A stretch of DNA of 64,000 nucleotides from Pseudomonas tumuqii (lineage in GTDB: Bacteria; Pseudomonadota; Gammaproteobacteria; Pseudomonadales; Pseudomonadaceae). The notes below the pieces were generated by a model. That model had not been told where the DNA came from, did not search any database, and saw only the letters and a list, made by a program, of their open reading frames with translations. Position numbers and translations under genes: made by a program. Location: NCBI RefSeq assembly GCF_013184545.1, contig NZ_JAAOJA010000005.1:62001-126000 (forward strand). The letters are read 5' to 3'. Positions 44,199 through 62,299 of this stretch are shown piece by piece (the stretch's first letter is position 1; every line of letters begins with the position of its first letter).

Positions 44199-45119
44199 TC
44201 AGGTCAGCACGGTGAGGAAACGTTCGTTGAGCTGGCGGTCGTGGTAGAAGATCGCCTTGCCCAGTTGGTCGGCGGTCCAGGTCACCACCGGGTGATCGGG
44301 GTAGTGGTAGTCGCCGCCGCAGAACACCTCGTTGCGGTTACCCGACGGGTCGAAGAAGTAGATGGTCTTGCCATGGGTCAGGCCGTGACGGGTCGGGCCG
44401 ATGTCGATCGAGGTGTCGGTCATGCTGATCAGGTCGGCGGCGCGCAGCACGTCCTCCCAGGTCTCGAGGAAGAACGAGGCGTGGTGGAAGCGGCCCTTCT
44501 CCGGGTGGAGGATGAAAGCCACGTCGTGGGCCTTCATGCACAGGCTGAGGAACTGGGCGATGCGCGTGCCGCCATCGAGTACCTGTTCGGCGAGGGTGAA
44601 GCCGAGCACCTCGGTGAACAGGCGCAGGGTCTCGTCCAGCTCATCGCCGTACAGCAGGCAATGGTCGAAACGCACCGCGCGCATGCCCTTGAGGCCACGC
44701 GGCCAGGCTTCCGGGTTGACCTCGGCGAGGCCCCATTTGCCGGTGACCTGCTTCTGCGCGAACAGCTCGAAGCGGTGTCCGGACGGCGAGCTGAACTGCA
44801 CCCGCCGCCCGCAGTCCTTGAGTTCGCCGGCCGGCAGTTCTTCCACCTGGCAGCCGAACTCCAGCAGCTCGCCGGCCAGGCGGGTCAGGCAGGCATCGTC
44901 GATCACCTTGAAGCCCATGAAATCCATGCCCGGCTCGTCGGCCTCGCGCAGCACCACGGAGAACTTGTCGGTCTCGGTCCAGGCCTTGAGATAGACCCGG
45001 CCTTGCCCGTCGCGGTCGACCTCGATCAGGCCGAGCAGGTCGACGTAGTGTTCGAGGGCCTTGGCCATGTCCAGCACGCGCAGTTGCACGTGGCCGGGAC
45101 GCATCACACCTTTTTTCAT
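44199..45119 (-). CDS. dmpB: Catechol 2,3-dioxygenase
   Basis: 306 residues, extradiol type I. Fe(II) ligands H153 (RFDHCLL), H213 (RFHHASFF) and E264 (NRNEVFCGG); acid-base H198, H245 and Y254 are also present. Numbers from the second ligand on are one lower than in XylE because of a one-residue deletion near position 182. Performs meta cleavage of catechol to 2-hydroxymuconic semialdehyde. Starts 3 nt inside the end of the ferredoxin gene. Confidence 0.96.
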
Positions 45120-45454
45120 AACGACACCTTTTGTCTTTGTTGTGGGTCGACCGTGCTTTCGCTGCACGGTTTTGAATAACGCTCGATACACAGATCGCTG
45201 CGGGCAAACAGGCGGCAGGCCAGGACGTAGCCCTGTTCGCGGGCGTCTGCCGGGACGTGCTTGCAGCTCATGCGCCCGCACTCGTAGTCGCCGGCCAGCA
45301 CCCGCACCTTGCACAGGCCACAGCCGCCCCCGCGGCAACCGACCGGCACGCAGAGCAGGCCGTGCTGCTCCATGGCGGTGAGGACCGGCAGCGCCTCGTC
45401 GCAGCTGAAGCGCTGGCCACTGCGGGCCTCGGTCACCTGGTGTTGTCTGCCCAT
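45116..45454 (-). CDS. dmpQ: Chloroplast-type ferredoxin reactivating the dioxygenase
   Basis: 112 residues. [2Fe-2S] ligands in CRGGGCGLC and a downstream LACRLF. XylT/DmpQ ferredoxins re-reduce oxidised Fe in catechol 2,3-dioxygenase, especially with substituted catechols. It lies directly before dmpB with overlapping stop and start. Confidence 0.93.
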
Positions 45455-45465
45455 GGCGGCGACCC

Positions 45466-46527
45466 TCAGAGACGCTTGAACAGCGCGGAACGCTGGCTGT
45501 CGCCGGCGCCATCGGCGGCGGTGAGGAAGCGCTCCATGAAGATGTCGCGCTCGAACAGGCGGCCCTGCATCAATGTGCTGATGGCCGCGTCGATCATCGG
45601 TGGCGGCCCGCACAGGTAGGCCTTGTGCCCGCTGAAGCGGCCGTCGAAATGGGCCTTGGCGGCGTCATGCACGAAGCCCTTGAAGCCCTGCCAGTCCGGA
45701 TCGTCAGTGGCCTGGCTGAGCGCCGGCACATAGGTGAAATTGCCGTGCTCGCGGGCCAGGCCCTCGAACAGCTCGCGGTTGTAGAGTTCGGCGACGTTGC
45801 GCGCGCCCTGGAACAGGGTGATCTGGCGGCTGTCGCCCTGTTCGAGCAGGTCGAGGATCATCGACTGCGGGCTGGACAAGCCCGAGCCACCGGCCATGAA
45901 GATCAGGTCGCCCGGCTGCGAACCGCGCACGAAGAACTGCCCGTAGGGGCCGGACAGCTGCAACTGATCGCCGACCTTGAGCTGCTGGTGGATATAGCCG
46001 GTGGCGGCGCCGCCCTCGACCAGGCGCACATGCAATTCCACTTCGCTGGCCTGGCCCGACGGATTGGCCAGGGAGAACGCCCGGCTGCCGTCGATGCCCG
46101 GCAGGTCGAGGTTGACGTATTGCCCGGACTGGAAGGCCATCGGCCGATCGAGGCGCAGGTGCACGCCCTTGATGGTCGGCGACAGCTCGACGATGGCACT
46201 GACCGTGGCGCGGAAATCCGCCACCGGATGGCCGAGAAAGTCGGGGTCGACGTCGATGTCGGCCTCGATGGTCACGTCGCTCTGCACGGTGGCGCAGCAG
46301 GCCAGCACCTTGCCCTCCTCGCGCTCGATGTCCATCAGGGCGAAGGGCGAGGCGGCGCCGATCTCGACCTCGCCTTCCAGCACCTGCACCTTGCAGGTGG
46401 CACAGGTGCCATGGCCGCAGGCGAAGGGCAGCCACACGCCCTGACGCAGGGCGGCCTGGAGGATGGTCTGGCCTTCCTCCACGTCGATCTGTTCGCCGGT
46501 CGGTTCGATGGTGACGGTGTAACTCAT
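45466..46527 (-). CDS. dmpP: Phenol hydroxylase reductase component P5
   Basis: 353 residues. N-terminal plant-type [2Fe-2S] domain (C37, C42, C45, C77), FAD domain ([10 protein letters not shown]) and NAD(P)H domain ([21 protein letters not shown]). Passes electrons from NADH to the DmpN di-iron centre. The length equals DmpP. Confidence 0.96.
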
Positions 46528-46537
46528 GGTGCTCACC

Positions 46538-46897
46538 TCAACTCGCGGAGTTGCCCAGGCCGTTCAGGCCGGGGGTTTGCAGACGCAGCATGTCCTTGTG
46601 GCGGAGGCCGTTGGCGTCCAGGCTGGCGGCGAAATCCGGTGACCATGGCTGGTCGTTGAGCAGCCAGACGCTGGCGCTGAAATCGACCTTGGCGGTATCC
46701 GGGTGGGCGGCCATGGCCGGGCGCAGCACTTGCTCGCACAACTCGGCGAAGCCCATGGCCGGATCGACCAGCAGGGCGAACGGCGAGCAGAACATCAGGT
46801 GGCGATCCCAGCCCAGGTACAGCAGGCGATTGCCGTGGAAGTTGGCTTCGAGGTCGAGCGGGGGGAATTCATAAGCCCCGATGGCATTGACGGTCAT
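46538..46897 (-). CDS. dmpO: Phenol hydroxylase component P4
   Basis: 119 residues, small subunit of the DmpLNO hydroxylase (gamma-type). Contains YLGWDRHLMFCSPFALLVDP, typical of P4 proteins. The length equals DmpO. Confidence 0.93.
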   Translation of the reverse strand: MTVNAIGAYEFPPLDLEANFHGNRLLYLGWDRHLMFCSPFALLVDPAMGFAELCEQVLRPAMAAHPDTAKVDFSASVWLLNDQPWSPDFAASLDANGLRHKDMLRLQTPGLNGLGNSAS

Positions 46898-46960
46898 GAA
46901 GAGGTTCCTCTTGTTCTGGGTATCGGAAGGAGCGGGACGGCGCTGCCGTCCCGCGCCGGC

Positions 46961-48499
46961 TCAGCTCGCCTTGGGCAGCGGGGCGACGGCCGGATTCAAG
47001 CCCTTCCACTGCAGCCAGCGCTGGTGCTCGGGCGAGCCGAGGTACTCGAAGTTGTCCTCGCCGATATTGATGTTGTAGTAGTCGCGCACCACCGACTCGA
47101 TGTCGGCGCCGCCACAGTTGCCCTGGTAGATCTGGTGCACCGGCAGCCAGGCCTGGACGTACTTCTGCGGCTGGTTCTTGAAGATGTCGCAGCAACCATC
47201 CGAGCAGAAGTGGTAACGCTCGCCCTCGTGCACATGGCTGCGATGGCTGAGCTGGGTGGCGTCGTCCGGCTCGGTGAAGATGGTCGGTATCTGGCACACC
47301 TGGCACAGCTGCGGCAGGGTGTTGTTGTAGAAGCGCTCGCCCTTTTCCTGCTGCTCGCGCCAGAAGGTGAAGCGCTCGCGGTAGTACTGGTCGAAGGTGT
47401 TCGGGTACTTGGCCGACAGCCAGTCCATCTCCTCCTCGTTGGGCATCCAGGTGTGGAAGTTGGTGGCCTGGCTGTACTGGTAGAAGGTCGCCCAGGCCTG
47501 GTGGGAGACGTGCTCCTTGCCGATGGTCGACTGCTCGACGTACTTCGGCGCCCGGATGCCGTAGCGCTCCAGGTCCTTGAACAGCGCGCCGCCGGCCTGC
47601 TCGAAGTAGACCTCCCAGGCTTCGGCCCAGGACATGACTTTGTTCGGCAGCATGTAGTCCATCATCATGCCGACCAGTGTCAGCAGGCGGTTGCCACGCC
47701 AGAACCACTTGTCGATCCAGCCCTGGATGATCGGCACGTTGTCCTCGTGCTGCTCGAGCATGAACTTGATCACCTCCAGGCCCAGGGTCATGTGCCGCGC
47801 CTCGTCGGACTGCGCCGAGAAGCCGAAGGTGACGGTGGCCATGTCGCCGTTGTAGGCCGCGCCGGACATGAAGGGCACGAACAGCAGGTTGGTCAGCACG
47901 TACTCGAAGGAGAACGAGATCGCGGTGAGGAACTCGAACGGCCCGGCCGTGCGCGCATCGTCGAAGAACGACTTGGGCACCGAGAGGAACCACACGCGGT
48001 CGTGCATATGGGCAAAATCATGCAGGCCGTTGAAGTGCTTGTTGTAGTGGCTCATCGCGTGAACCTGGGTCTGCACGTGGCGCAGCTCGTCGATCGCCTG
48101 CATCTGGCAGGCGACCCGCGCACCGGCGCCGCTGAACTGCCGGCCGACCCGGGCGAAGCCCTGGAACGCCTGGTACTCGCAGGGGCTGATGCCACCGAGG
48201 AACAGCTTCAGCGCATTGACGTAGCGCGCATCGGAGATGGTCTGCTGGCCGTTGTTCTGGGCGAAGGCGTCGAGAATGGCGTAGAGCTTCTTCTCCTTCT
48301 CGGCCTGGTACTTCCAGTAGGCATCCATGGTCAGGCGGAAGGGGTCTTCCCACTTGTCCCAGTCGGTGATCTTGATGCCCTCGAAATCCTCGTGGGGGAA
48401 GATGGCCTTCTTGTCCTGGTAGCTGGGCTCCCAGTCGAGGTCGCGGGTCAGGTAGCGGTACTTGTCTTTGAGGCCGAGTTTTTTCTTGTTGGCGGTCAT
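46961..48499 (-). CDS. dmpN: Phenol hydroxylase component P3, di-iron oxygenase subunit
   Basis: 512 residues, the catalytic alpha subunit. Carboxylate-bridged di-iron ligands are visible as E108 (CEYQAF), E138 and H141 (DELRH), E199 (FEYVL), E233 and H236 (DEARH). A C-terminal TRASH/YHS-like segment holds CQVCQ and HFCSDGCCDIF cysteines, as in P3 proteins. Hydroxylates phenol to catechol with O2. Confidence 0.96.
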   Translation of the reverse strand: MTANKKKLGLKDKYRYLTRDLDWEPSYQDKKAIFPHEDFEGIKITDWDKWEDPFRLTMDAYWKYQAEKEKKLYAILDAFAQNNGQQTISDARYVNALKLFLGGISPCEYQAFQGFARVGRQFSGAGARVACQMQAIDELRHVQTQVHAMSHYNKHFNGLHDFAHMHDRVWFLSVPKSFFDDARTAGPFEFLTAISFSFEYVLTNLLFVPFMSGAAYNGDMATVTFGFSAQSDEARHMTLGLEVIKFMLEQHEDNVPIIQGWIDKWFWRGNRLLTLVGMMMDYMLPNKVMSWAEAWEVYFEQAGGALFKDLERYGIRAPKYVEQSTIGKEHVSHQAWATFYQYSQATNFHTWMPNEEEMDWLSAKYPNTFDQYYRERFTFWREQQEKGERFYNNTLPQLCQVCQIPTIFTEPDDATQLSHRSHVHEGERYHFCSDGCCDIFKNQPQKYVQAWLPVHQIYQGNCGGADIESVVRDYYNINIGEDNFEYLGSPEHQRWLQWKGLNPAVAPLPKAS

Positions 48500-48509
48500 G
48501 GCTTGGCTC

Positions 48510-48779
48510 CTAATTTTTCCACTCGAGAACGAAGGCGTCGTCGTCCTCGTCGACGTTGCCGCCGATGGTGATCACGTCCAGCAGCATTTCCTGCACGTCC
48601 CAGGCGCGGCCGAGCCGCTCTTCCATGGTGTCGCGACGGATCTCCAGACGGCCTTCGGCCTCGATGCGGATCATTGCCGGCTGGTGCTCGACCCGCGCAT
48701 GGGGGTTGTCATGGCTGATGCCATCCACCAGGTAGCGGGCGTTGTCGTTGTCCTGCAGGACGATGTAAACGAGCGACAT
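48510..48779 (-). CDS. dmpM: Phenol hydroxylase coupling protein P2
   Basis: 89 residues, cofactor-free effector protein that binds the hydroxylase and couples electron transfer to oxidation. Family sequence RYLVDGIS and AMIRIEAEGRLEI are present. Confidence 0.94.
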   Translation of the reverse strand: MSLVYIVLQDNDNARYLVDGISHDNPHARVEHQPAMIRIEAEGRLEIRRDTMEERLGRAWDVQEMLLDVITIGGNVDEDDDAFVLEWKN

Positions 48780-48790
48780 GGTCTGGATCC

Positions 48791-49780
48791 TTATTGAATG
48801 TTCAGGCCGAGCTTGTTCAGCCGGGCGAGGAAGTCCTGCTGCACGCTGGCGAATGCCGCGCCGCCGGCACTGATCTCGGCCAGGGGCGCCAGCGCCTCGA
48901 GGGCACGGGCCGACCAATGGGCAATCCAGGTTTCGATCTGCTGGCGATTGCTCTCGCTCTCGGCGGCCACGGTCTTGACCATGGCATCCACCCAGCGGCT
49001 GTTCTCGGCGTACCACTGGCGCATGAACTCGGTGAGCATGCCGACGTCGCCGGCGCCTTCGGCACTCAGGGTCTCGTCGAACTTCTGGTAGATCAGCGGG
49101 AACAGCAGGCCATCGCTGACCAGGTTCTGCGCCAGGCTCAACTCGAACCAGTCCTTGACCACGAAGCTGTCCTCGACGTAGCGGCGCAGGCCCTGCCACA
49201 GCGGATCTTCCAGCCACAGCTGCTTGCCCTGCTCGAGCGCCGCGGTGCCGCCGCCGTCGAGCAACAGGCCGATGCGCGACAGGTACTGGGCTATCCCTAA
49301 GCGGTCCATGGCGGAGTAGATGTGCATCTGCACCACGGTGGTGGCGCAGCCATCGGCGGCGATGCCGCTGTTGTTCATGTTGGCGCCCAGCTCGGCGTGG
49401 CGCAGCGGCACCAGCACCCGCAGAATGCGTGCGCGCTGCTCGTCGCTCAGGCGTCCCAGCAGCTCGCGCTTCTCGCAGAAGGCGTACTCGTGCTCGGTGG
49501 TTTCCTGCATGCGCGCGCGGGTCTGCACGTAGGTGCCGTAGTAGTACTGGCGCGGATCGCTGACCGCATACCAGTCGCGCATCACCAGGCAGGTGCGGGT
49601 GACATCGTTGAGCAGCTTGTCCGGCTGCCACTGCGGGCGGTAATGGAAATTCAGCGTGGCGGCGACGTCGTAGCTGGCCTCCTGATAGCGGCTGGCCGGC
49701 TTGTCGCCGAAGCGTCTGCGGATATGGCTGAAGGTCTGGCGGATCGGCTCCACCGTGTTCGTCTTGATCTCTATGCTCAT
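48791..49780 (-). CDS. dmpL: Phenol hydroxylase component P1
   Basis: 329 residues, the beta subunit of the hydroxylase. Ferritin-like fold without the di-iron ligands. RRRFGDKPASRYQEASYDVAA near the N-terminus is characteristic. 10 bp before dmpM. Confidence 0.95.
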   Translation of the reverse strand: MSIEIKTNTVEPIRQTFSHIRRRFGDKPASRYQEASYDVAATLNFHYRPQWQPDKLLNDVTRTCLVMRDWYAVSDPRQYYYGTYVQTRARMQETTEHEYAFCEKRELLGRLSDEQRARILRVLVPLRHAELGANMNNSGIAADGCATTVVQMHIYSAMDRLGIAQYLSRIGLLLDGGGTAALEQGKQLWLEDPLWQGLRRYVEDSFVVKDWFELSLAQNLVSDGLLFPLIYQKFDETLSAEGAGDVGMLTEFMRQWYAENSRWVDAMVKTVAAESESNRQQIETWIAHWSARALEALAPLAEISAGGAAFASVQQDFLARLNKLGLNIQ

Positions 49781-49827
49781 CTCGACCGTACCTGTTGTTG
49801 TTGTGTGTGGCTGCCGTGGGCAGGCTC

Positions 49828-50097
49828 TCAGTCGCGCTTGCCCGGCATGCGGCGGCCGGCTTCACCGAAGCGCCACTTGACCATGTCGTCGTCGACTGCC
49901 TGGGCCATCGCCTGGTCCATCACCACCACATGGTTGTGCTGGCAGAACTGGGTGAACGCGGCTTGCGGCAGCACCAGCTCGACGAACAGGTCCGGGTAGC
50001 CGATGGCGAAATCGAACTCGACGAAGCGGGCACCTGGTTCGCTGCGCACCCGGATGTAACGCGGCAGGTCTTCAAAACGGGGTTCAAGCGTGTTCAT
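49828..50097 (-). CDS. dmpK: Phenol hydroxylase component P0, assembly factor
   Basis: 89 residues. P0 proteins help insert iron into the oxygenase. Contains RYIRVRSEPGARFVEFDFAIG. The first gene of the operon, ~40 bp downstream of the -24/-12 promoter. Confidence 0.92.
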   Translation of the reverse strand: MNTLEPRFEDLPRYIRVRSEPGARFVEFDFAIGYPDLFVELVLPQAAFTQFCQHNHVVVMDQAMAQAVDDDMVKWRFGEAGRRMPGKRD

Positions 50098-50137
50098 GTT
50101 CGGGCCATCTCCCTTGGTGGCGGGTGACAGGCCTAAC

Positions 50138-50153
50138 GCAACGGCTGTGCCAA
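50138..50153 (-). promoter_or_regulatory. Sigma-54 promoter Po of the phenol operon
   Basis: Minus strand TTGGCACAGCCGTTGC: GG at 50151-50150, 10 nt, GC at 50139-50138. It matches the TGGCAC-N5-TTGC consensus at every conserved base. Transcription would begin near 50126, ~30 bp before dmpK. Confidence 0.9.
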
Positions 50154-50261: not shown

Positions 50262-50308
50262 TTGATGATTTGATCAAATGCCCCAGGCCGGCTTGAGCAA
50301 ATGCTCAG
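50262..50308. promoter_or_regulatory. Two DmpR upstream activating sites
   Basis: UAS1 TTGATGATTTGATCAA (50262-50277) and UAS2 TTGAGCAAATGCTCAG (50293-50308) are imperfect inverted repeats of the TTGATCAATTGATCAA type bound by XylR/DmpR. Their centres are 31 bp apart and ~143 and ~174 bp upstream of the inferred start. A weaker third half-site is near 50342-50356. Confidence 0.85.
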
Positions 50309-50574: not shown

Positions 50575-52260
50575 ATGGCAATCAGGTACAAGCCACAACT
50601 GCAACATTCGGACTTTCAGGATCTGAGCAAACAGATCCGTTTTCAAAGCATGGAAGGCAAGATCTGGTTCGGCGAACAGCGCATGTTGCTGATGCAGGTT
50701 TCCGCCATGGGCAGTTTTCGCCGCGAGCTGGTGAGCATCCTCGGCATCGAGCGGGCCAAGGGCTTCTTCCTGCGCCTGGGCTATCAGTCCGGCCTCAAGG
50801 ACGCCGAGCTGGCGCGCAAGCTGCGCCCGCATTGCAGCGAGCTGGACATCTTCCTCGCCGGCCCGCAGCTGCATTCGCTCAAGGGCCTGGTCAAGGCGAT
50901 CCCCACCGAGCTGGATATCGACATCGAAACCGGGCGTTTCTACGTCGAGGTGGAGTGGGTCGACTCCTTCGAGGTGGAAATCTGCCAGAGCGAACTGGGG
51001 CCGATGGCCGACCCGGTGTGCTGGACCCTGCTCGGCTACGCCTGCAGCTACTCCTCCTCGTTCATGGGCCGCGAGGTGATCTTCAAGGAGATCACCTGCC
51101 GCGGCCGCGGCGACGACAAATGCCGGATCGTCGGCAAGCTGGCCGAGGAATGGGACGACGCCGAGGCGTTCAAGCAGTATTTCAAGAACGATCCGATCAT
51201 CGAGGAACTCTACGAGTTGCAGTCGCAACTGGCCTCGCTGCGCACCAGCCTGCAACGCCAGGAAGGCCAGTACTACGGCATCGGCCAGTCCCAGGCCTAC
51301 ACCAAGGTCTGCCAGATGATCGACAAGGCCGCCCAGGGCAAGGTCTCGGTGCTGCTGCTCGGCGAAAGCGGGGTGGGCAAGGAGGTGATTGCGCGCAGCG
51401 TGCACCTGCGCAGCGCCCGCGCCGAACAGCCGTTCGTCGCGGTCAACTGCGCCGCCATTCCACCGGACCTGATCGAAGCGGAGCTGTTCGGCGTGGAAAA
51501 GGGCGCCTTCACCGGCGCGCTGCAGTCGCGCATGGGCCGTTTCGAGCGGGCCAACCAGGGCACCATCTTCCTCGACGAAGTGGTCGAGCTGAGCCCGCGC
51601 GCCCAGGCCACCCTGCTGCGGGTATTGCAGGAAGGCGAACTGGAACGGGTCGGCGACAACCGCACGCGCAAGGTCGACGTGCGGGTAATCGCCGCCACCA
51701 ACGAAAGCCTCACTGAGGCGGTCAAGACCGGCAAGTTTCGCGCCGACCTGTTCTACCGGCTCAACGTGTTCCCGGTCAGCATCCCGCCCCTGCGCGAACG
51801 CCTGGAGGATATCCCGCTGCTGGTGGAGCATTTCCTCAAGCGCTTCCACAGCGAATACAACAAGAAGACCCTGGGCCTTTCCGACCTGGCCATGGAGGCC
51901 TGCATGCACTACCCCTGGCCGGGCAATATCCGTGAGCTGGAGAACGTCATCGAGCGCGGCATCATCCTCACCGAGAGCAACGAGAGCATCAGTATCGAGG
52001 CGCTGTTCCCGCAGTTGCAGATGGAAGAATTGCTCGAGAGCCGGCTGTCCAACGAAGGCACCCTGCTGCAACCGGCCGCCGAGCAGAACTGGATCGAACA
52101 GGTATTGGGTTCCGGGCTGAGCCTGGACGCCATCGAAGAACAGCTGATGCGCGAAGCCATGCAGCGCGCCAATAACAACGTCTCCGGCGCCGCGCGCATC
52201 CTCGGCCTGACCCGCCCGGCCCTGGCCTACCGGCTGAAGAAGATCGGCATCGAGGCCTGA
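50575..52260 (+). CDS. dmpR: DmpR-type phenol-responsive sigma-54 activator
   Basis: 561 residues. Sensor (V4R) domain ~1-210 with residues equivalent to the MopR/DmpR phenol pocket H100 and W128, and the zinc site C149, E172, C175, C183 (each six lower than MopR numbering). AAA+ domain ~235-475 with Walker A GESGVGKE (263-270) and GAFTGA (310-315). C-terminal Fis-type helix-turn-helix ending [11 protein letters not shown]. Direct binding of phenol relieves repression by the sensor domain, and the protein then activates Po. Divergent from the dmp operon. Its last 54 nt are duplicated at 52827-52880. Confidence 0.94.
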
Positions 52261-52826: not shown

Positions 52827-52880
52827 CTGACCCGCCCGGCCCTGGCCTACCGGCTGAAGAAGATCGGCATCGAGACCTGA
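52827..52880 (+). repeat. Duplicated 3' end of dmpR
   Basis: 54 nt matching the last 54 nt of dmpR (52207-52260) at 53 positions (GAGGCC becomes GAGACC). Encodes [16 protein letters not shown] on the plus strand, with no upstream gene body. On the minus strand it supplies the end of the LRAT-domain gene. Confidence 0.9.
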
Positions 52881-53383
52881 CTGAGCCGCTGCAACTGCGG
52901 ACAGGCCCGCACCAGCAGCCTGGGCAGCAGGCGCCAGACCAGGCCCAGCGCCGCCAGGGGACGAGCCAACAGACCGCGCACCTGGTCGCTGCGCGGGCAG
53001 CCATAGCGGCACCAGGTGCAGAAGTGCTCGCAGTTGTTGGTCAGCAGCCGATAGCGGCTCTCGCCAAGCCGCGAGCGGGCCCTGGCCACCACCTGCCCGG
53101 CCGCGAAGCCGGGTAGGGGACGGTACTCGATCCACACCGGCCGGTTCGCCGTGAACCGCTCGAGCGGCACCTCTTCCACCGGCCCGGCCTGCAGCGATTC
53201 GCACAACCCGGCGTAATGCACCACTCGCCCGTTGCCGACATAGATGCCGTGATGGCAATAGCCATGGCGCGGCGTGACCAGGTGTGCGCCCAGTGGCGGC
53301 TCGACGTCCGCATCGATATCCCAGAGCACCTGGCGTGCCCCGCGCGTTGCGCTTGCCTGGAAAAGCGGGTGGGTACTGTTCAT
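52847..53383 (-). CDS. LRAT-domain (NlpC/P60-like) protein with chimeric C-terminus
   Basis: 178 residues. Lecithin:retinol acyltransferase-like domain with H45 (CHHGIYVG), H56 (VVHYAG) and C118 (TNNCEHFC), the circularly permuted NlpC/P60 catalytic set. Bacterial members are poorly characterised acyltransferases or amidases. The last ~11 residues (..SMPIFFSR) and the stop are read from the antisense of the duplicated dmpR end, so the native C-terminus has been replaced. GGAG lies 7 nt before the ATG at 53383. Divergent from the YCF48 cluster. Confidence 0.75.
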   Translation of the reverse strand: MNSTHPLFQASATRGARQVLWDIDADVEPPLGAHLVTPRHGYCHHGIYVGNGRVVHYAGLCESLQAGPVEEVPLERFTANRPVWIEYRPLPGFAAGQVVARARSRLGESRYRLLTNNCEHFCTWCRYGCPRSDQVRGLLARPLAALGLVWRLLPRLLVRACPQLQRLSQVSMPIFFSR

Positions 53384-53610: not shown

Positions 53611-53655
53611 TTTACCAAATGGATAAAGCTCCGGGCGATTTGATTATTTGCTCAA
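53611..53655. promoter_or_regulatory. DmpR-type upstream activating sites of the MMPL cluster
   Basis: TTGATTATTTGCTCAA (53640-53655) matches the reverse complement of dmp UAS2 at 13 of 16 positions, including the 10-mer ATTTGCTCAA. A degenerate second site TTTACCAAATGGATAA (53611-53626) has its centre 29 bp away. They lie ~133 and ~162 bp before the inferred start, close to the dmp layout. Confidence 0.75.
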
Positions 53656-53754
53656 AGGCAAGGCGCCCCGCCGCGCTGCAATTCCCCGCCGAACAAGCCT
53701 CACAGAACATAAAAACAAATACGTTTCAGTAACTTGCAAACCAATACAGGAGAC

Positions 53755-53769
53755 TGGCACAGGCGTTGC
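53755..53769 (+). promoter_or_regulatory. Sigma-54 promoter of the YCF48-MMPL-DUF1302-DUF1329 cluster
   Basis: CTGGCACAGGCGTTGC: GG 53756-53757, 10 nt, GC 53768-53769. It matches Po of the dmp operon at 14 of 16 positions. The inferred start near 53781 is ~41 bp before the first ATG. Confidence 0.85.
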
Positions 53770-53821
53770 TCTAGGGTCACCAACCGCTGCAAGACAACAA
53801 CAATCCAAGTGGTGACCCGTA

Positions 53822-54835
53822 ATGAGCTTCACTCCCAAGCCGCGTAACGGCCTGCCCTGCGCTATTGCCACCTCGCGTCGGCCTCGTACCACCCTTGCCC
53901 TGCTTCTGCTGCCCGTGTTGCTGACCGGCTGCGAGGCCGAACTGAATCTGGCGGCGGTCGGCGAGGCAACCAGCCACGCCAGCCTGCGCACCGATCATTA
54001 CCAGGCGTTGGCCAGCAACGCGGCAGTCAGCGTGCTGGTCGGCAACGACGGCGTGGTCCTGGTCAGCCAGGACCAGGGCCTGACCTGGCAGCGCCAGCAA
54101 CTGCCGGGGCAACCCGGTCTGATCGATGTGGATGCCTGCCCGGACGGCAGTTTCATCGCCCTCGGTTTCGACAACCAGCTGTGGCACAGCGCCGATCAGG
54201 GCCTGAGCTGGAATGCCCAGGCGCTGCCGACCCAGGAGCAGATGCTCACCGCGACCTGTACACCCGATGGCGCCTGGTGGGCGGCGGGCGGCTTCACCAC
54301 CCTGCTCAACAGCCGGGACCAGGGCGCCAACTGGGATGAAACCAGCCTGGACGAAGACGCCATGCTCACCACCCTGCAGTTTCTCGACGCGCAGCAGGCG
54401 GTGGTCACCGGCGAGTTCGGCCTGCTCTTCAGCAGTCGCGACGGCGGCCGAAGCTGGCAGGCCAGCGGCCGCCTGCCGGAGGAGTTCTACCCGCACGCCA
54501 GCCGCTTCGTCAGCCTGGATGAAGGCTGGGTCGGCGGCCTCAATGGCTTCATCTACCACACCGTCGACGCCGGCCAGAGCTGGCAACGCCAGGACACTCC
54601 GTCCGCCGCACCGATCTTCAACTTCAGCGCCAACCGCGACGGCCTGTTCGCCATCGGCGATCACAGCAGCGTGCTGCGTCTGAGCGGCGAGCGCTGGCAG
54701 GCATTGCCCACGCCGAATGCGCCGACTTACCTGCGCGCCGTCGGCAGCGACGACCATCGTCTGACCGTGGCCGGCGGCCGCGGCCTGTTGCTCAACCTCG
54801 ATACCCGCCCGGCCCTGGCCGCCCAGGCTCAGTGA
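53822..54835 (+). CDS. YCF48/BNR-repeat lipoprotein
   Basis: 337 residues. N-terminal signal with lipobox LLTG-C37, so probably lipid-anchored in the envelope. The rest is a beta-propeller with Asp-box-like repeats: VSQDQGLTWQ, HSADQGLSWN, NSRDQGANWD, SSRDGGRSWQ, HTVDAGQSWQ. YCF48-like proteins next to MMPL/DUF1302/DUF1329 genes are probably assembly or accessory factors. First gene of the cluster, preceded by a sigma-54 promoter. Confidence 0.8.
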   Translation: MSFTPKPRNGLPCAIATSRRPRTTLALLLLPVLLTGCEAELNLAAVGEATSHASLRTDHYQALASNAAVSVLVGNDGVVLVSQDQGLTWQRQQLPGQPGLIDVDACPDGSFIALGFDNQLWHSADQGLSWNAQALPTQEQMLTATCTPDGAWWAAGGFTTLLNSRDQGANWDETSLDEDAMLTTLQFLDAQQAVVTGEFGLLFSSRDGGRSWQASGRLPEEFYPHASRFVSLDEGWVGGLNGFIYHTVDAGQSWQRQDTPSAAPIFNFSANRDGLFAIGDHSSVLRLSGERWQALPTPNAPTYLRAVGSDDHRLTVAGGRGLLLNLDTRPALAAQAQ

Positions 54836-54839
54836 GGCT

Positions 54840-57335
54840 ATGACCATGTCCATGCACCGCTTCACCCATTTCTTCTACCTGGCCAAACTCTGGCTGTTCC
54901 GTAACCCGCGCCGGGTGCTGGCGCTGATCGGCGCGCTGACCCTGTTCTTCGCCCTGCAGATCCCGGCGCTCAAGGTCTATACCGACTTCGCCGACCTGCT
55001 GCCGCAGGAACACCCGTATATCCAGCTGCACAACAGCATCAAGGACACCTTCGGCGGCGCCAACGTGCTGGTGATCGGCGTCGAGTTCGAGGACGGCGAC
55101 CTGTTCAGCAACGCCAACCTGGCCACCCTCGACCGGGTCACCCAGGCGGTGGACAACCTGCCGGGGGTCAACCACAACCTGGTCAGCAGCCTGACCCACC
55201 GCAACTCGCGCAAGATCTGGCTGACCGAGGTCGGCAGCATCAACTCCGAACCCTACTACCAGCCCGAATTCGGCGCGCTCGACGACGCCCAGCTGGCGGC
55301 GATGAAGGCCGACGTGGTGGCCAACCCGCGGGTCTACGGGCCGCTGGTATCGCCCGACCTCAAGGTGGCGCTGGTCAAGGCGCAGCTGATCGAGGGCCAG
55401 CTCGACTACGCACAGACCTTCGCCCAGCTGCAGGCCCTGCGCCAGGCGGAAGTGCGCGACGGCGTCAAGCTGTACGCCACCGGCCAGCCGGTGCTGGTCG
55501 GCTGGGCCTACACCTACATGGAGCAGATCCTGCAGATCTTCGTGTTCACCGTGTTGGCCATGCTGGCCCTGCTGGTGTTCCATTTCCGCAAGGCCTACGG
55601 CGTGCTGATCCCGCTTGGCGGGGTGCTGATCTCGACCATCTGGGGCCTGGGCATCATCAGCCTGCTGGGCTACAACCTCGATCCGCTGGGCCTGGTGATT
55701 CCCTTCCTGATCGCCGCGCGGGCCATGAGCCACGGCGTGCAGCTGGTGGAGCGTTACTACGCCGAAGTGCGCGAGCGCGGCAACGGCCAGCTGGCCGCAC
55801 GCGCCACCTTCGACAGCCTGTTCCGCCCCGGCACCCTGGGCATCGCCTCGGACGCCATCGGCCTGGCGCTGATCGCCATCGGCTCGATCGCGCTGAACAC
55901 CAAGCTGGGCATCTACGCCTCGCTGTGGGCGACCACGGTGATCTTCTCGGTGCTGATCGGCGTGCCGCTGCTGCTGTCGATCCTGCCGCAGCCGAAGCAT
56001 CCCGAAATCAAGGAAACCTTCCTGCGCCATATCGGCGCCACCTGCGCCGCCACCGTGTCGCGCCCCGGCGCCGCGCGCAAGCTGCTGTGGCTGGCCGCCC
56101 TGGCGATTGTCGCCGGGCTGTGGGCGTCGGCGCAGGTGCGCATCGGCGACTCCGAACCCGGCTCGCCGATCCTCTATCCCGAGCACGACTACAACCTGTC
56201 GTCCAAGCAGATCAACCAGCGCTTCCCCGGCTCCGAGGAGCTGTACATCATCGCCGAGCACGCCGAGAACGGCGGGATCAAGCGCCCGGAAGTGCTGCGC
56301 GCCCTGCAGTCGCTGCAGGCGCACATGCTCGGCGACCCGACGGTGGGCGGCAGCAAGGGCCTGCCGGACCTGGTCAAGCAGGTCAACCGGCTGATGCACA
56401 ACGACGATCCGCGCTGGTTCCAGATCCCCCATGACGCCGATTACGTCGGCGGGCTGATGTTCACCTACATGGCCTCCAGCCCGATCCCAGGGGCGCTGGA
56501 CGAGTTCAACGACACCGACGACCGCATCGCCAACCTGGTGTTCTATTACAAGGACCGCCAGGGCGAGACCATCCGCCGCGCCATGCACATGGCCAAGCAG
56601 TGGATCGCCGAACACGGCGAGGAAGTCCCCGGCCTGAGCATCCGCCTGGCCGGCGGCACCCTCGGCGTCGCCGCGGCGATGAACGAGTCGGCGTTCGAGA
56701 CCAACCTGCTGGTGCTGCCGCTGGTGTTCCTGCTGATCTTCGCCTTCGTCATGGTGTTCTACACCAGCTGGCACGCCGGCCTGATGATGCTGATGGCGAT
56801 GCTCTTCGCCACCGTGCTGACCTACGCCTACATGGGCCTGGCCGGGATGAGCATCGACATCAACACGGTGCCGGTGATCGCCGTGGGCATCGGCGTCGGC
56901 ATCGACTACTCGATCTACATGATGGACCGCATCCGCGAGGAGATGGTCAAGAGCGGCAACCTGTCCGCCGCGGTGCACCGCGCCATCGCCACCACCGGCA
57001 TGGCGATCAGCTTCACCGCGCTGACCCTGATGGCCGGCATCATCATGTGGGCGCTGCTCTCCGACCTGCGTTTCCAGGCCGACGCCGCCAAGCTGCTGTG
57101 CGTGATGATCGTGATCAACGGCATCGCCGCCATGTTGCTGGCCCCGGCCTGGGTGCTGGTGTTCAAGCCGCGCTTCATCACCGATGCCTACGTCGATGCG
57201 GACGGCGTGATCCACGCCGACCAGGACGCCGAACCGACCAGCCCCGACGCCACCCCAATTGCCACCGATCCACTGTCGACCGCCCTTCGGGAGCAGGGCG
57301 GCGGACTGCTGTCCGAGGCGCGCCAACCGGCCTGA
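54840..57335 (+). CDS. MMPL/RND-family transporter
   Basis: 831 residues, about twelve membrane helices in two halves: TM1 ~27-45, then a periplasmic loop and helices ~230-380; TM7 ~425, a second loop and helices ~640-790. VIAVGIGVGIDYSIYMMDRIREE is the conserved RND segment with Asp and Tyr in the proton path. MMPL proteins move lipids or hydrophobic molecules through the envelope using proton flow. No adaptor (HlyD-like) or TolC gene is present, so a DUF1329/DUF1302 route is inferred. 4 bp after the YCF48 gene. Confidence 0.85.
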   Translation: MTMSMHRFTHFFYLAKLWLFRNPRRVLALIGALTLFFALQIPALKVYTDFADLLPQEHPYIQLHNSIKDTFGGANVLVIGVEFEDGDLFSNANLATLDRVTQAVDNLPGVNHNLVSSLTHRNSRKIWLTEVGSINSEPYYQPEFGALDDAQLAAMKADVVANPRVYGPLVSPDLKVALVKAQLIEGQLDYAQTFAQLQALRQAEVRDGVKLYATGQPVLVGWAYTYMEQILQIFVFTVLAMLALLVFHFRKAYGVLIPLGGVLISTIWGLGIISLLGYNLDPLGLVIPFLIAARAMSHGVQLVERYYAEVRERGNGQLAARATFDSLFRPGTLGIASDAIGLALIAIGSIALNTKLGIYASLWATTVIFSVLIGVPLLLSILPQPKHPEIKETFLRHIGATCAATVSRPGAARKLLWLAALAIVAGLWASAQVRIGDSEPGSPILYPEHDYNLSSKQINQRFPGSEELYIIAEHAENGGIKRPEVLRALQSLQAHMLGDPTVGGSKGLPDLVKQVNRLMHNDDPRWFQIPHDADYVGGLMFTYMASSPIPGALDEFNDTDDRIANLVFYYKDRQGETIRRAMHMAKQWIAEHGEEVPGLSIRLAGGTLGVAAAMNESAFETNLLVLPLVFLLIFAFVMVFYTSWHAGLMMLMAMLFATVLTYAYMGLAGMSIDINTVPVIAVGIGVGIDYSIYMMDRIREEMVKSGNLSAAVHRAIATTGMAISFTALTLMAGIIMWALLSDLRFQADAAKLLCVMIVINGIAAMLLAPAWVLVFKPRFITDAYVDADGVIHADQDAEPTSPDATPIATDPLSTALREQGGGLLSEARQPA

Positions 57336-57374
57336 GCCGGCGTGCACCAACAACCCACCGCAAGAGGTTCTGCC

Positions 57375-59267
57375 ATGCAGACAAGAATAAGAAAAAGCCT
57401 GAAACACTGGACCCTGGCCACGCTGGCGGGCGCGGGCTGCGGCCTGACCCCGCTGGCCGCGGTCCTGGCCGACGAGGAGATGCAGGTCACCGGTTTCGTC
57501 GAGAACGCCACCTTCGCCCGCGATAGCGTCGGCCTGTCGAAATTCCGCAACACCCTGCAGGTCAACGCCGACCGCAAGTTCGGCGACCTCGGCCAGCTGA
57601 ACTTCAACAACACCGCTTTCCACGCCACTTTCCGTGGCACCTACGACGGCGTCTACGACCTCAACAGCAGCGAGTACGGCAGCGGCGCGGGGGGCGCCAT
57701 CGAGCTGGAGAACAGCGTGGCCGGCAACAGCGTGCCCCACGGTGGCGGCCTGACGGTGCCCGGCACCCTGCTCGGCTTCGACCAGGCGCGCAACCCCAAC
57801 GAGGGCATGATCGTACTCGGCGAGAACCTGCACAAAACCCGCGGCGGCGTGGCCTTCGGCGTGCCGGTGCGGCCCTGCGACAAGGACAGCCGCGGCTGCA
57901 TCGACGACTACCTGGACGCCAGCAGCGACGACCTGCGCTTCCCCGAGTTCAACGAGCGCCTGGACTTCATCCGCGAGCTCTACGCCGACTTCGACAATGA
58001 GCTGCCCAACGGCGACATCCTCAGCTGGCGCCTGGGCAAGCAGCAGGTGATCTGGGGCCGCACCGACCTGTTCCGCGTGCTCGACGTGATCAACCCGGTC
58101 GACTATTCGCGCAACAACATCTATGACGAGCTGGAAGACATCCGCATCCCCATGTGGATCGCCAAGGCCGACTGGCGCATGGGCGCCGGCGAGCTGTTCG
58201 ACGACCTCAACCTGTCGTTCGTGTGGAACTTCGACAAGTTCCGTCCGCACAACCTCGGCCAGTGCGGCGGGCCCAACTCGATCCTCGACGCGGCCTGCTT
58301 CTTCCGCGGCATGAACAACCTGTGGGAAAACGGCGGCACCGTGGCCAACTTCGCCAACGGCAACATCGCCACCGACTTCGGCCCCGGCCAGATCGGTATC
58401 CGCAAGGCGCACATGCCGTCCTGGAGCCTGTCCAACACTCAGTTCGGGATCAAGCTGGAAGGCGTCTACGGCGACTTCGGCTTCAGCCTCAATGCGCTGA
58501 CCTACCGCTCGCAACTGCCTTCGCTGCGTGGCGGCATCCCGGCGACCAACGCCTTCACCGGCGAGACCGCGGTGTGGCCGAGCCTGATCGCCTTCGACAT
58601 CCACTTCCCGCGGGTCAACCTGCTCGGCGGCTCGATGGACTACTACTCGCAGGCGATCGACACGGTATTCCGCGTCGAAGTGGCGCACACCGAGGGCGAG
58701 GAGTTCGCCAACACCCTGCAGTCGCGGCTGTTCTCCGAATCCGACGTGACCCGCTACGTGATCGGCGCGGACAAGAACATCTTCATCCCGCTGCTCAACC
58801 CGGGCCGCGCCTTCCTGTTCTCGGCGCAACTGTTCGGCCAGCACATCCACGAACACCAGGAGGAGACACGCGCACTGGGCAAGGTCGGCATGCCGGACTG
58901 GGAGCAGAACTGGATCGGCACCCTGCTGGTCAAGGGCTGGTGGATGAACGATCGGCTCAGCCCGCAGTTGCTCGCCGCGCATGACTTCAAGGCCCAGGCC
59001 ACGGCCATCGCCCCGAGTGTCGAGTACCTGTTCAGCGACAACCTGAAGATCACCGCCGGCGCCAACATCAAGGTCGGTCGCGGCGCCCGCGAGTACGACG
59101 ACTGCCGTACCTGCAACCCCTGGGACCCCTTCACCAGCGCCGGCCAACCGGAAGGCATGAGCCTTGGCCTGTCCGGCTATGAACCCCTCGGTCGTTTCCG
59201 CGCCGGCCCTATCGGCATGGCGCAAAAGGAAGACGAACTGCAACTGACCCTGCGCTACAGCTTCTGA
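57375..59267 (+). CDS. DUF1302 family predicted outer-membrane protein
   Basis: 630 residues. The signal peptide ends near AAVLADEE. The mature protein is beta-rich, with alternating amphipathic strands and a C-terminal aromatic (LRYSF), as expected of an outer-membrane barrel. The segments LSWRLGKQQVIWGRTDLFRVLDVINPVDY and IRIPMWIAKADW, split here for length, are the DUF1302 hallmarks. Works presumably with the DUF1329 protein encoded 18 bp downstream. Confidence 0.85.
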   Translation: MQTRIRKSLKHWTLATLAGAGCGLTPLAAVLADEEMQVTGFVENATFARDSVGLSKFRNTLQVNADRKFGDLGQLNFNNTAFHATFRGTYDGVYDLNSSEYGSGAGGAIELENSVAGNSVPHGGGLTVPGTLLGFDQARNPNEGMIVLGENLHKTRGGVAFGVPVRPCDKDSRGCIDDYLDASSDDLRFPEFNERLDFIRELYADFDNELPNGDILSWRLGKQQVIWGRTDLFRVLDVINPVDYSRNNIYDELEDIRIPMWIAKADWRMGAGELFDDLNLSFVWNFDKFRPHNLGQCGGPNSILDAACFFRGMNNLWENGGTVANFANGNIATDFGPGQIGIRKAHMPSWSLSNTQFGIKLEGVYGDFGFSLNALTYRSQLPSLRGGIPATNAFTGETAVWPSLIAFDIHFPRVNLLGGSMDYYSQAIDTVFRVEVAHTEGEEFANTLQSRLFSESDVTRYVIGADKNIFIPLLNPGRAFLFSAQLFGQHIHEHQEETRALGKVGMPDWEQNWIGTLLVKGWWMNDRLSPQLLAAHDFKAQATAIAPSVEYLFSDNLKITAGANIKVGRGAREYDDCRTCNPWDPFTSAGQPEGMSLGLSGYEPLGRFRAGPIGMAQKEDELQLTLRYSF

Positions 59268-59285
59268 TCACCACGAGGAAGACCC

Positions 59286-60599
59286 ATGAACAAGCAATTC
59301 CGCTTCCGTTTCGCCGCCCTTGCCCTGGCCATGAGCGCAGGTGTCGCCCAGGCCGACTCGGCCGTGATCGACAACTCGTTCTACCCCTACCAGGCCGAGA
59401 AACCGGCGTTTGCCGGGCTCAGCGCCGGCCTGACCATCAACAAGGCCAACGTCGCCCAGTTCAAGGACATCATCGATCCGGCCTTCTATGGCTTTATCGA
59501 GAAGGGCTGGCTGGACATGCAGGTCGGCGAGACCACCTCCTTCGACCTGCACCCCAACTATGTCGAGGCCACCCGGCAGGGCCAGGACAAGGTCAAGCTC
59601 GGCGCCAAGCCCGGCGAGATCGAAGGCTGGGTCGCCGGCCGGCCCTTCCCCCAGGAGCCGGACGCCAATGACCCGCGCGCCGGCGAGAAGCTGGCCTGGA
59701 ACTACAAGTACGGCTACAACTGGGGCGACAGCGCGGCCATCTCGCCGTTCTACTGGAAGTACCGCGACATGGACTCGGCCAAGGTCGAGCGCACCATCAA
59801 GTTCGACTTCCACTTCCTCAACTTCACCGGCCGGGTCAACCAGCAGCCGCTGCCGGCGATCACGCCGAACCCCTCGCAGCTGTTTCGCGGCATCTACGTC
59901 AAGGTTCTGGAACCCTATGACGTGCGCAACACCCAGCTGCTGATCCACCGCGCCGAGGACGACCTCAAGCGCGACAACTCCTGGCTCTACCTGGGCTTCC
60001 AGCGCCGCGTGCGCCGCCTGGCCACCGGCCAGGTAACCGACGCCTTCCTCGGCTCGGACCTGATGATCGAGGATTTCGAGGGTTACAACGGGCGCATCTC
60101 CGACATGAACTGGAGCTACAAGGGCACCAAGTTCCTGTTGATGCCCTTCTACAACCACAACGACCTGACCCTGGACAGCGAAACCCACAAGGACAGCGAC
60201 GGCTACCAGGTGGTGGCCTTCGCCGGCCAGGGCGGCTGTTTCCCCAACATCACCTGGCAGCTGCGCAAGGTCTACGAGGTCGAGTCGGCGCCGGTCGAAG
60301 GCAGCCACCCGCTGTCCAAGCGCGTGCACTACGTGGATGCGCAGACCTTCACCGTGCCGCGCACCATTTCCTATGACCGCAAGGGCAGCCTGTGGAAGAC
60401 CTTCACCATCGGCCAGGCCCACCCCGATCATCACCTGGCGAAGAACAAGGGCAGCGGTGTGTCGATCGACGACAGCTTCAGCATGATCGACGTGCAGGCC
60501 ATGCACTGCACCACCGGCCAGTTCAAGGGTCAGGTCGACCCGGCAATGAGCAAGCCGGAAATGTTCAGCGTGCAGCACATGCGCGCGACCGGTAACTGA
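59286..60599 (+). CDS. DUF1329 family periplasmic protein
   Basis: 437 residues with signal peptide (cut after AGVAQA). DUF1329 proteins are sometimes annotated as lipoprotein-sorting like and may carry hydrophobic cargo through the periplasm. Characteristic blocks are [16 protein letters not shown]-like [25 protein letters not shown] and RKGSLWKTF. Last gene of the cluster, followed by a terminator. Confidence 0.85.
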
Positions 60600-60617: not shown

Positions 60618-60642
60618 ACCGCCCGGCAGCACGCCGGGCGGT
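60618..60642 (+). terminator. Rho-independent-like terminator of the MMPL cluster
   Basis: ACCGCCCGGC-AGCAC-GCCGGGCGGT stem 19 bp after the DUF1329 stop, followed by TTGCTC. The stem is strong and the T tract is short. Confidence 0.65.
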
Positions 60643-60739
60643 TTGCTCACTACCCCCGAATTCAACTCAGGCGGCGCCCGCGCGGCACGGCAACGCTGGC
60701 CCGTGCGTCTGCCGCCACCTTTATTACGGATCGGAAGCC

Positions 60740-62299
60740 ATGTCCCAGCGCGCGCCAGACCCAGGCCAGGCTCAAGCCCAGCAACAACTGCTGTTGCTGA
60801 CCGACAGCCAGGCCAACATCCTCTACGCCAGCCCGGCGCTGTGCCGTCTGGCCGGCTTCGGCGAAAGCGCCCTGCTCGGCCGCCCCGCCAGCTGCCTGCG
60901 TCACCCGGAGATGCCGCCGGGGCCGATCAAGGATCTCTGGGCGACCCTCGGCCGCGGCCAGTCCTGGATGGGCATGCTGCAGAACCGCCGGGCCGACGGC
61001 CAGCCGTTCTGGGTCGACGCCTTTATCAGCCCGGTGCTGGAAGACGGCAAGGTGCGCGAATACCAGGCCATCTATCGCCTGCCCCAGGCCGAGGCGATCC
61101 AGCGCGCCAGCGCCATCTACCGCACCCGCAGCCAGGGCAGGCAGCCGGCGGCATTGCGCTGGCAATGGCTGACCCGCCAGCGCGCCCAGTCCCTGCTGGC
61201 GCTGCTGGCCTTCAGCCCGCTCGGCCTGCTCGCCCTGAGCCACAGCCCGCAGCTGGGCGGCGCCGTGCTGGCCGCGAGCGCCAGCCTCTGCTGGCTGCTG
61301 TTGAGCCTGCACGGCAAGCCCTTCGCCGCGCTGGTGGCGGACAGTCGGCGCATCGTCGAGCACCCGATCAAGCAGCTGATCTACACCGGGCGGATCGACG
61401 AAGTCGGCCAGTTGCAGCTGAGCAACCGTCTGCAGGAGGCGCGTCTGGCCTCCATGGTGGCGCGCATCGGCGACAGCAGCAGCCGGGTCAGCGCCCATGC
61501 CGACCATACCCGGCAACTGCTCGGCACCAGCAATCAGGCGGCCGAGCAGCAGCAACAGGCCCTGGATGGCATCAGCGCCGCAGTCGAACAGCTCAGCGCG
61601 ACCATCCAGGAAGTGGCGGGCAACACCCGCAATGCCGCCGAACAGACCCAGCAGGCGCAGGCCTTGAGCGACGATGGCCAGCGCCAGGTGGGCAATGCGC
61701 ACCAGAGCATCGCCGCCCTCGCCGCCACCCTCGACCAATCGGCTGCGGCCGTCACCGCCCTGAGCCAGCACAGCCAGAGCATCGGCGGGATACTCGCGGT
61801 GATCCGCAGCATCGCCGAGCAGACCAACCTGCTGGCCCTGAATGCCGCCATCGAGGCGGCGCGGGCCGGCGACAACGGCCGCGGCTTCGCCGTGGTGGCC
61901 GACGAGGTACGCTCCCTGGCCCAGCGCACCCAGGCCTCCACCGACGAAATCCAGGGCATGATCGAAGCCCTGCGCCAGGGCACGGCGCAGGTGGTCAAGG
62001 CCATGCAGCAGGGCCTGCAACAGTCGCGGGCCAGCGTCGAACAGGTCGACGCCACCGCCCAGGCCCTGGCGCACATCACCCTGCGCATCGGCGAGATCGC
62101 CGGCATCAGCAGCCAGATCGCCGCCGCCGGCCACCAGCAGAGCCAGGCCGCCGAGGAGATCAACCAGAAAATCCACGCCCTGCAAGGCCTGGCCAGCCAC
62201 AGCCTGCAACTGCAACGCGACACCCTCGACCTCGCCGACCAGGTCAGCAGCCAGGCCAGCCGACAGCGCGCGCTGATCGAGCATATGCACGGGCACTGA
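60740..62299 (+). CDS. PAS-containing, Aer-like methyl-accepting chemotaxis protein
   Basis: 519 residues. N-terminal PAS domain (~20-115; [33 protein letters not shown]), two short membrane segments (~150-195) with little periplasmic exposure, then a signalling domain with the conserved tip [18 protein letters not shown]. This is the layout of Aer, which senses redox through PAS-bound FAD. In phenol-degrading P. putida, an Aer-type protein mediates metabolism-dependent taxis to phenol, so the location may be meaningful. The HAMP domain is not obvious. Confidence 0.85.

Follow-up and report, generated by a model that had tools for sequence, protein, structure and literature searches.

A dmp-like sigma-54 promoter with paired upstream sites precedes a YCF48-MMPL-DUF1302-DUF1329 cassette in Pseudomonas and points to a probable second DmpR target

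DmpR is a model regulator and a chassis for biosensors, and is generally regarded as acting on a single operon. We analyzed a stretch of 64,000 nucleotides (the window) from the 5.5 Mb genome of Pseudomonas tumuqii (assembly GCF_013184545.1, contig NZ_JAAOJA010000005.1, positions 62,001 to 126,000), which contains a minus-strand dmp operon that also includes an aldehyde dehydrogenase gene, a plus-strand dmpR-type regulator gene, and a plus-strand cassette of four genes belonging to the YCF48, MMPL, DUF1302 and DUF1329 families (Table 1). Searching the regulator with Pfam revealed the complete DmpR family architecture, in which a sensor composed of XylR_N and V4R is joined to a sigma-54 AAA+ domain and a Fis-type helix-turn-helix (HTH); its top NCBIfam model is MobR, at 735.9 bits and under the cut-off of 999. 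Ahead of the cassette lie a -24/-12 promoter and two predicted upstream activating sequences (UAS) that resemble those of the dmp operon.

Table 1. Features of the dmp-dmpR-cassette locus, in window coordinates.
Feature	Position	Strand	Basis or remark
dmp operon: phenol hydroxylase components, catechol 2,3-dioxygenase-like gene	44199..50097	-	Pfam
dmp operon sigma-54 promoter, Po-like, TGGCACAGCCGTTGCG	50137..50152	-	
dmp UAS nearer the dmp promoter	50262..50277	not set	
dmp UAS farther from the dmp promoter	50293..50308	not set	
dmpR-type regulator gene: XylR_N, V4R, sigma-54 AAA+, Fis HTH	50575..52260	+	Pfam, NCBIfam
Distal UAS, weak, predicted, TTTACCAAATGGATAA	53611..53626	+	29 bp above the proximal site
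Proximal DmpR/XylR-type UAS, predicted, TTGATTATTTGCTCAA	53640..53655	+	
Sigma-54 -24/-12 promoter, TGGCACAGGCGTTGCT	53755..53770	+	GG-N10-GC exact
YCF48/BNR beta-propeller gene	53822..54835	+	PF14870, 6.3e-17
MMPL/HAE3-type RND inner-membrane transporter gene, 831 amino acids	54840..57335	+	PF03176, 1e-24
DUF1302 outer-membrane beta-barrel gene	57342..59267 (GTG 57342) or from ATG 57375	+	PF06980, 1.2e-43
DUF1329 periplasmic LolA-like carrier gene	59286..60599	+	PF07044, 1.1e-74
PAS-containing chemoreceptor gene, possible fifth member	60740..62299	+	Pfam

Comparison of the cassette promoter with the dmp promoter revealed identity at 14/16 bases, with the exact GG-N10-GC spacing that the original prediction had described, and within the window the pattern TGGCA[CT]-N5-TTGC matches these two promoters only. 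Strong sigma-54 sites are rare, 15 being found across the genome as compared to 2 for the reversed pattern, the strong pattern being one that excludes the dmp promoter itself through its last base. The proximal UAS begins 115 bp above the -24 element, within the 100–200 bp upstream range expected for a pair of ~16 bp palindromes, and agrees at 14/16 bases with the nearer dmp UAS and at 13/16 with the reverse complement of the farther one; the likeness to a dmp UAS proposed earlier is therefore real, while the figure given for it, 13/16, should have been 14/16. The weaker second site that had been placed 29 bp farther up, as compared to 31 bp at dmp, was recovered as described. The strict UAS pattern TTGAKNANWTGMTCAA has two matches in the entire genome, one at the dmp promoter and one at the cassette; allowing one mismatch adds places on C4 and C8 and one inside dmpR, none with a second listed match alongside in a search whose scope did not extend to weaker partner sites. 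Mononucleotide shuffling of the upstream DNA, repeated 20,000 times, gave a top combined score of 28, as compared to 35 for the real sequence.

We determined the conservation of these elements in a family set of 248 genomes, in which MMPL orthologs were defined by at least 78% identity, the paralogs following at 37%. Orthologs are present in 23 of these genomes, the window's own included, and upstream DNA was readable at 21 of the 23 loci (L029 is cut by its contig and L033 is a split match). The -24/-12 core is intact in 20 of the 21 readable loci, window included, with L022 carrying ATGC for TTGC, and all 21 have a UAS with at least 12/16 matches; both elements are also present in L178, the G192 region behind L033. 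The counterpart of the distal UAS is stronger in some relatives, as in L014 (TTGATCAAATCGACAA).

Named genomes were scanned as well, with matches at 138 places, the best 80 of which were taken as the basis of all counts of named loci. The nearest by MMPL gene, at 94–96% identity, are Pseudomonas sp. MMS21 TM103, P. aestuarii SA3-5, a Pseudomonas metagenome-assembled genome and Pseudomonas sp. CC6-YY-74, and the set spans Pseudomonas, Stutzerimonas, Halopseudomonas, Marinobacter, Alteromonas/Paraglaciecola, Marinobacterium, Neptuniibacter and others. The four genes keep the window's order in 76/80 loci; the other four (L117, L127, L171, L174) sit on stretches that end early. We scored 79 loci (the 80 named plus L178, less L107 and L168) for a UAS pair combined with a promoter: 60/79 reached a score of at least 32, as compared to 6/7762 control windows taken from the same loci after masking of the dmp, dmpR and phenol-hydroxylase zones, and in an unmasked control that counts the dmp promoter among its windows, 63/12450 reached the observed score. 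Spacing within the pair is 29–32 bp, or about three helical turns, in 58 of the 66 loci having a site. Two genomes carry two cassettes each (L149 and L167; L146 and L164), and in both the sites are present at one cassette and absent at the other. In the Alteromonadaceae loci L133, L135, L138 and L140, the pair returned by a looser scan is weak or irregularly spaced, and these sites are therefore doubtful.

The cassette is also closely linked to dmpR. The order dmp (minus strand), dmpR (plus) and cassette (plus) occurs in 18/20 regions, the exceptions being L058, which lies at a contig start, and G171, where dmpR lies beyond the other side of the cassette in a different orientation, yet UAS and promoter are both kept. 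Among the named loci, 44/80 have a DmpR of at least 64% identity on the same strand, located upstream of the YCF48 match by no more than 1504 bp. Where such a DmpR is in view (46 loci), the site is present in 46/46 by a looser count and in 44/46 by the strict one, which L133 and L135 fail. Close DmpR homologs occur in 23/23 genomes with the MMPL ortholog as compared to 30/225 without it (Fisher p = 4e-18, ignoring shared ancestry). The original prediction was to be given up if relatives carrying both loci had lost the UAS and -24/-12 elements; both are conserved before the orthologous cassettes beside dmp and dmpR. Taken at the level of sequence, these data make DmpR control of the cassette very probable: the phenol sensor probably turns on both operons, because the switch resembles that of the phenol genes and the arrangement recurs in many relatives.

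In Pseudomonas veronii T1, from an aniline-contaminated site, dmp genes, dmpR and YCF48 are found on a conjugative IncP plasmid together with the UAS and promoter; DUF1302 and DUF1329 lie across the start of the record, with an IS66 element just past DUF1329. We considered this plasmid as a carrier of a working unit and rejected it, as its MMPL frame is broken.

Pfam bears out the YCF48-MMPL-DUF1302-DUF1329 content proposed from the open reading frames, and the genes are separated by 4–18 bp, or by 39 bp before DUF1302 if the later ATG is its start. The sequences and models of the proteins provide a number of clues to their roles: the YCF48 protein has LLTGC at its N-terminus, which we take to be lipobox-like; the MMPL protein has HAE3 TIGR00921 as its top NCBIfam model (122.7 bits, cut-off 351.9), and its profile reaches the solved structures of MmpL3 and SecDF; confidence in the DUF1302 model is low (mean predicted local distance difference test score, pLDDT, of 63), and from its barrel strands and porin-like matches we took only that the protein is a barrel; and the DUF1329 model (pLDDT 82.5) has a LolA/DUF1329 fold, matching 9tp6, 3bk5 and 4z48 with E values of 6e-16 to 5e-14, structures that its sequence profile matches as well. 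Among the matches to the DUF1329 model are LolA3 from Porphyromonas gingivalis and a DUF1329 protein of solved structure.

A chemoreceptor gene follows DUF1329 in the window, and a homolog lies at most 200 bp from DUF1329 on the same strand in 16/81 loci, 9/81 having too little DNA. Another chemoreceptor gene follows a second cassette of this genome (L181, below), which raises the possibility of a link between phenol taxis and the DmpR regulon. At 60620-60647, in the interval that separates DUF1329 from the chemoreceptor gene, we noted by eye a GC-rich inverted repeat, GCCCGGC...GCCGGGC, a possible terminator.

The stretch between dmpR and the cassette has features of its own. The last 54 bases of dmpR (52207-52260) are repeated with 98% identity at 52827-52880, 620 bp downstream; relatives L096, L097 and L102 have one copy of this tail and lack the extra ~620 bp, which indicates an insertion or duplication in the window relative to them. 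Between dmpR and the UAS also lies an LRAT-domain (NCEHF) gene of 178 amino acids (52847-53383, minus strand), divergent from the cassette; this stretch can be aligned in L096, L097 and L102, and only fragments of it align in L150.

From these features we infer the following course of events. DmpR activated by phenol or a methylphenol would bind the paired sites at 53611-53655 and, once bound, activate sigma-54 RNA polymerase at 53755-53770, and the four genes would be transcribed, presumably as a single transcript, as a second operon together with the dmp phenol-hydroxylase operon. The MMPL/HAE3 RND pump may then clear the inner membrane of hydrophobic aromatics, or of lipid that these have damaged; the LolA-like DUF1329 carrier would shuttle this cargo across the periplasm; the DUF1302 barrel would let it through the outer membrane; and the YCF48 propeller may act as an assembly or docking factor. 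Removal of hydrophobic compounds in this way would protect the cell during phenol degradation. An envelope route for a hydrophobic compound is consistent with the domain content, with the LolA-like model of DUF1329, and with published descriptions of related systems (PMC6394551; PMC10866462). Taken as a whole, the locus is in our estimation probably a DmpR-switched second operon encoding a trans-envelope system of the kind of AmeABCD from Castellaniella defragrans, most likely one that removes hydrophobic aromatics.

Several observations weigh against a DmpR-switched removal system. The distal UAS is weak, matching the palindromic consensus at 11/16 positions and the dmp sites at 8–10/16. Po has a site for IHF between UAS and promoter, and at the cassette no IHF site stood out in this interval over 58 loci (mean shuffle fraction 0.28; best in the window, 7/9). 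Scores fall below 32 in 19/79 loci, and at six of these a phenol hydroxylase gene can be seen (L133, L135, L171, L173, L174, L175). The Fisher probability takes no account of ancestry, and many of the named loci and family genomes come from the same species, so that the two sets are not independent. The cassette is missing from 30/53 genomes with a close DmpR and is thus accessory, and both cassette and phenol hydroxylase are absent from the stretches examined around six close DmpR homologs (L209-L214), so that a close DmpR is no proof of phenol use. Lastly, MMPL is broken at the same place on the P. veronii T1 plasmid (L229:20001-22246) and in G192 (L178:8276-10491), with ~69 residues gone, the frame shifted, and the adjoining cassette genes and UAS/promoter kept, and MMPL of G190 has an in-gene stop; some carriers are therefore without an intact pump.

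The genome provides further cassettes for comparison. Three XylR_N regulators were found in it, each of which (3/3, counting DmpR) lies beside a full four-gene cassette; the two besides DmpR are 43–46% identical to it. On C7 (L181:4170-18773) the order is DUF1302-DUF1329-YCF48-MMPL-chemoreceptor-regulator, adjoining a second multicomponent hydroxylase, and on C1 (L182:5946-15950) the regulator is divergent, with a strong sigma-54 site in the interval between it and the genes that lead up to the cassette. The first gene of a cassette on C18 (L251:8812-15464), in the order DUF1329-DUF1302-MMPL-YCF48, lies 130 bp downstream of a strong sigma-54 site, and the search found no XylR_N gene on that contig. 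In another paralogous cassette, on C16 (L183:7278-13852), the MMPL match has two in-frame stops. A UAS and promoter of the type described here were not seen at the cassettes of other XylR_N loci (13 loci scanned), with the exception of L182, at which a weak UAS pair accompanies the strong sigma-54 site; paired sites were also found in L215 and L218, both at dmp operons.

We compared these cassettes with a sample of 34 XylR_N loci, composed of 14 of 15 foreign matches (the weak G273 was dropped) and 20 that were hand-picked and hence non-random. At least three cassette genes are in view at 7/34 (L197, L202, L204, L221-L224), for the most part with no UAS/promoter of the present type to be seen, and any DUF1329 gene at 11/34; six of the 34 stretches are shorter than 20 kb, and L206 spans only 4 kb. 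We therefore rejected a universal rule that a XylR_N regulator adjoins a cassette: the link is common, not general.

On the direction of transport, we consider, as a matter of judgement, export or tolerance somewhat likelier than uptake. A DmpR-controlled uptake or lipid-handling route, in which DUF1302 and DUF1329 carry a hydrophobic substrate inward or lipids between the membranes, along a path that the RND protein fills or empties, is a less probable alternative that nonetheless deserves weight. LolA-like folds carry lipids or lipoproteins; the 13 DUF1302 and 14 DUF1329 genes of this genome are beyond the need of a general pump; and the two carriers with a broken MMPL frame retain both DUF1302 and DUF1329. 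That phenol passes membranes unaided counts on the other side. In Pseudomonas putida, PP_0765/PP_0766 with PP_2018/PP_2019 are required for growth on Tween 20 (PMC10866462), a phenotype that would suit uptake or lipid handling no less than export and so tells against removal as the sole interpretation. By contrast, deletion of AmeABCD lowers tolerance to non-functionalized monoterpenes and raises net Nile Red influx in CCCP-treated cells (PMC6394551), which disfavors uptake and is the strongest outside evidence for the proposed removal role.

The remaining explanations concern the switch itself. The two additional XylR_N regulators, each beside a full paralogous cassette, raise the idea that the sigma-54 promoter is served mainly by a XylR/NtrC-family activator other than DmpR. 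We consider this unlikely, since the proximal UAS is so close to a dmp UAS, the strict pattern occurs only at dmp and the cassette, the site travels with a close dmpR across relatives, and the UAS pair is not clear at the other two cassettes. It would be more surprising still if UAS and promoter were a non-working by-product of a duplication of the dmp promoter region, as their close likeness to the dmp promoter and the local duplication of the dmpR 3' end in this strain might suggest: the elements are kept in 60/79 loci, mostly with helical spacing, and also in G171 with its moved dmpR, and the dmpR-tail repeat is located elsewhere and is absent from the compared relatives.

If DmpR does have a conserved second target, phenol degradation would bring along an envelope system dedicated to it, which would bear on the tolerance of bioremediation strains and on off-target effects in DmpR biosensors; the cassette would also offer a clean inducible system for finding the cargo of DUF1302/DUF1329/YCF48/MMPL cassettes. 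More speculatively, the DmpR regulon in Gammaproteobacteria may extend to a second target of deep conservation, namely a dedicated trans-envelope machine that is switched on together with phenol hydroxylase, and sigma-54 sensors of aromatics might widely own a private, effector-matched envelope cassette, as further cassettes adjoin the other two XylR_N sensors or follow a strong sigma-54 promoter; we regard this broader view as an attractive possibility that is rather less likely than not to hold in full.

Among known systems, AmeABCD of C. defragrans comprises DUF1302 (AmeA), DUF1329 (AmeB), YCF48/COG4447 (AmeC) and HAE3-type RND (AmeD) proteins (PMC6394551). All four families are present here as well, in one tight gene run, and AmeABCD likewise lies beside catabolic genes; it differs in its order, A-B-C-D there and C-D-A-B here, and in its setting, monoterpenes there and phenols here. 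The passages on AmeABCD describe no DmpR-type control (PMC6394551). At the level of protein families, the MMPL protein is a candidate counterpart of AmeD, its HAE3 match staying under the cut-off. The A-B-C-D order occurs in two paralogous cassettes of the P. tumuqii genome, and C-D-A-B is also found on plasmid 2 of Aromatoleum aromaticum. In the P. putida system, the DUF1302 and DUF1329 proteins (PP_0765/PP_0766), which were modelled as a transport complex, have a periplasmic protein and a transporter of the efflux type as partners; unlike the cassette, its genes are split over two loci, and its phenotype is one on Tween 20 (PMC10866462). A Zoogloea phenol-hydroxylase cluster includes DUF1302 and DUF1329 genes (PMC7012976). 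With respect to dmp Po, the difference lies in what is driven, phenol hydroxylase by Po and envelope genes by the cassette promoter, and in the weaker distal UAS of the cassette.

The original prediction held that no DmpR-controlled DUF1302/DUF1329 system had been described. As stated this does not stand, since control by AphR has been predicted and an EtpR-dependent 'efflux' cluster demonstrated (PMC6449761; PMC4630880); among the open-licence papers searched, none was found that describes a cassette of this kind under DmpR control in Pseudomonas or any other gammaproteobacterium. In 2019, COG4447-COG1033-PF07044-DUF1302 operons of Betaproteobacteria were predicted to be controlled by AphR (in Burkholderia sp. 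383), AphS or AphT, with a proposed role in coping with toxic aromatics and solvent stress; one such operon was noted to have a chemoreceptor gene, and the UAS pair of the XylR/DmpR regulator group was placed about three helical turns apart (PMC6449761). These operons share with the cassette the same four families and a predicted regulator of the XylR/DmpR group, and differ in that control extends to AphS and AphT, whereas the cassette described here has a Pseudomonas DmpR as its predicted regulator and a promoter clearly like Po, and is conserved across Gammaproteobacteria, with the dmp-dmpR-cassette order recurring. In A. aromaticum EbN1, a deletion mutant showed that EtpR, a sigma-54-dependent NtrC-type regulator with a phenolic effector, is needed for an 'efflux' cluster (ebA326, ebA327 ... 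ebA335) beside the p-ethylphenol genes (PMC4630880). There too, one regulator switches catabolic genes and adjacent putative solvent-efflux genes; the pathway is the anaerobic one for p-ethylphenol, and as the comparison was made apart from the protein families of the efflux genes, it does not imply identity with the cassette. The cassette and its DmpR-type switch are thus a well-conserved new case among similar systems already predicted or shown.

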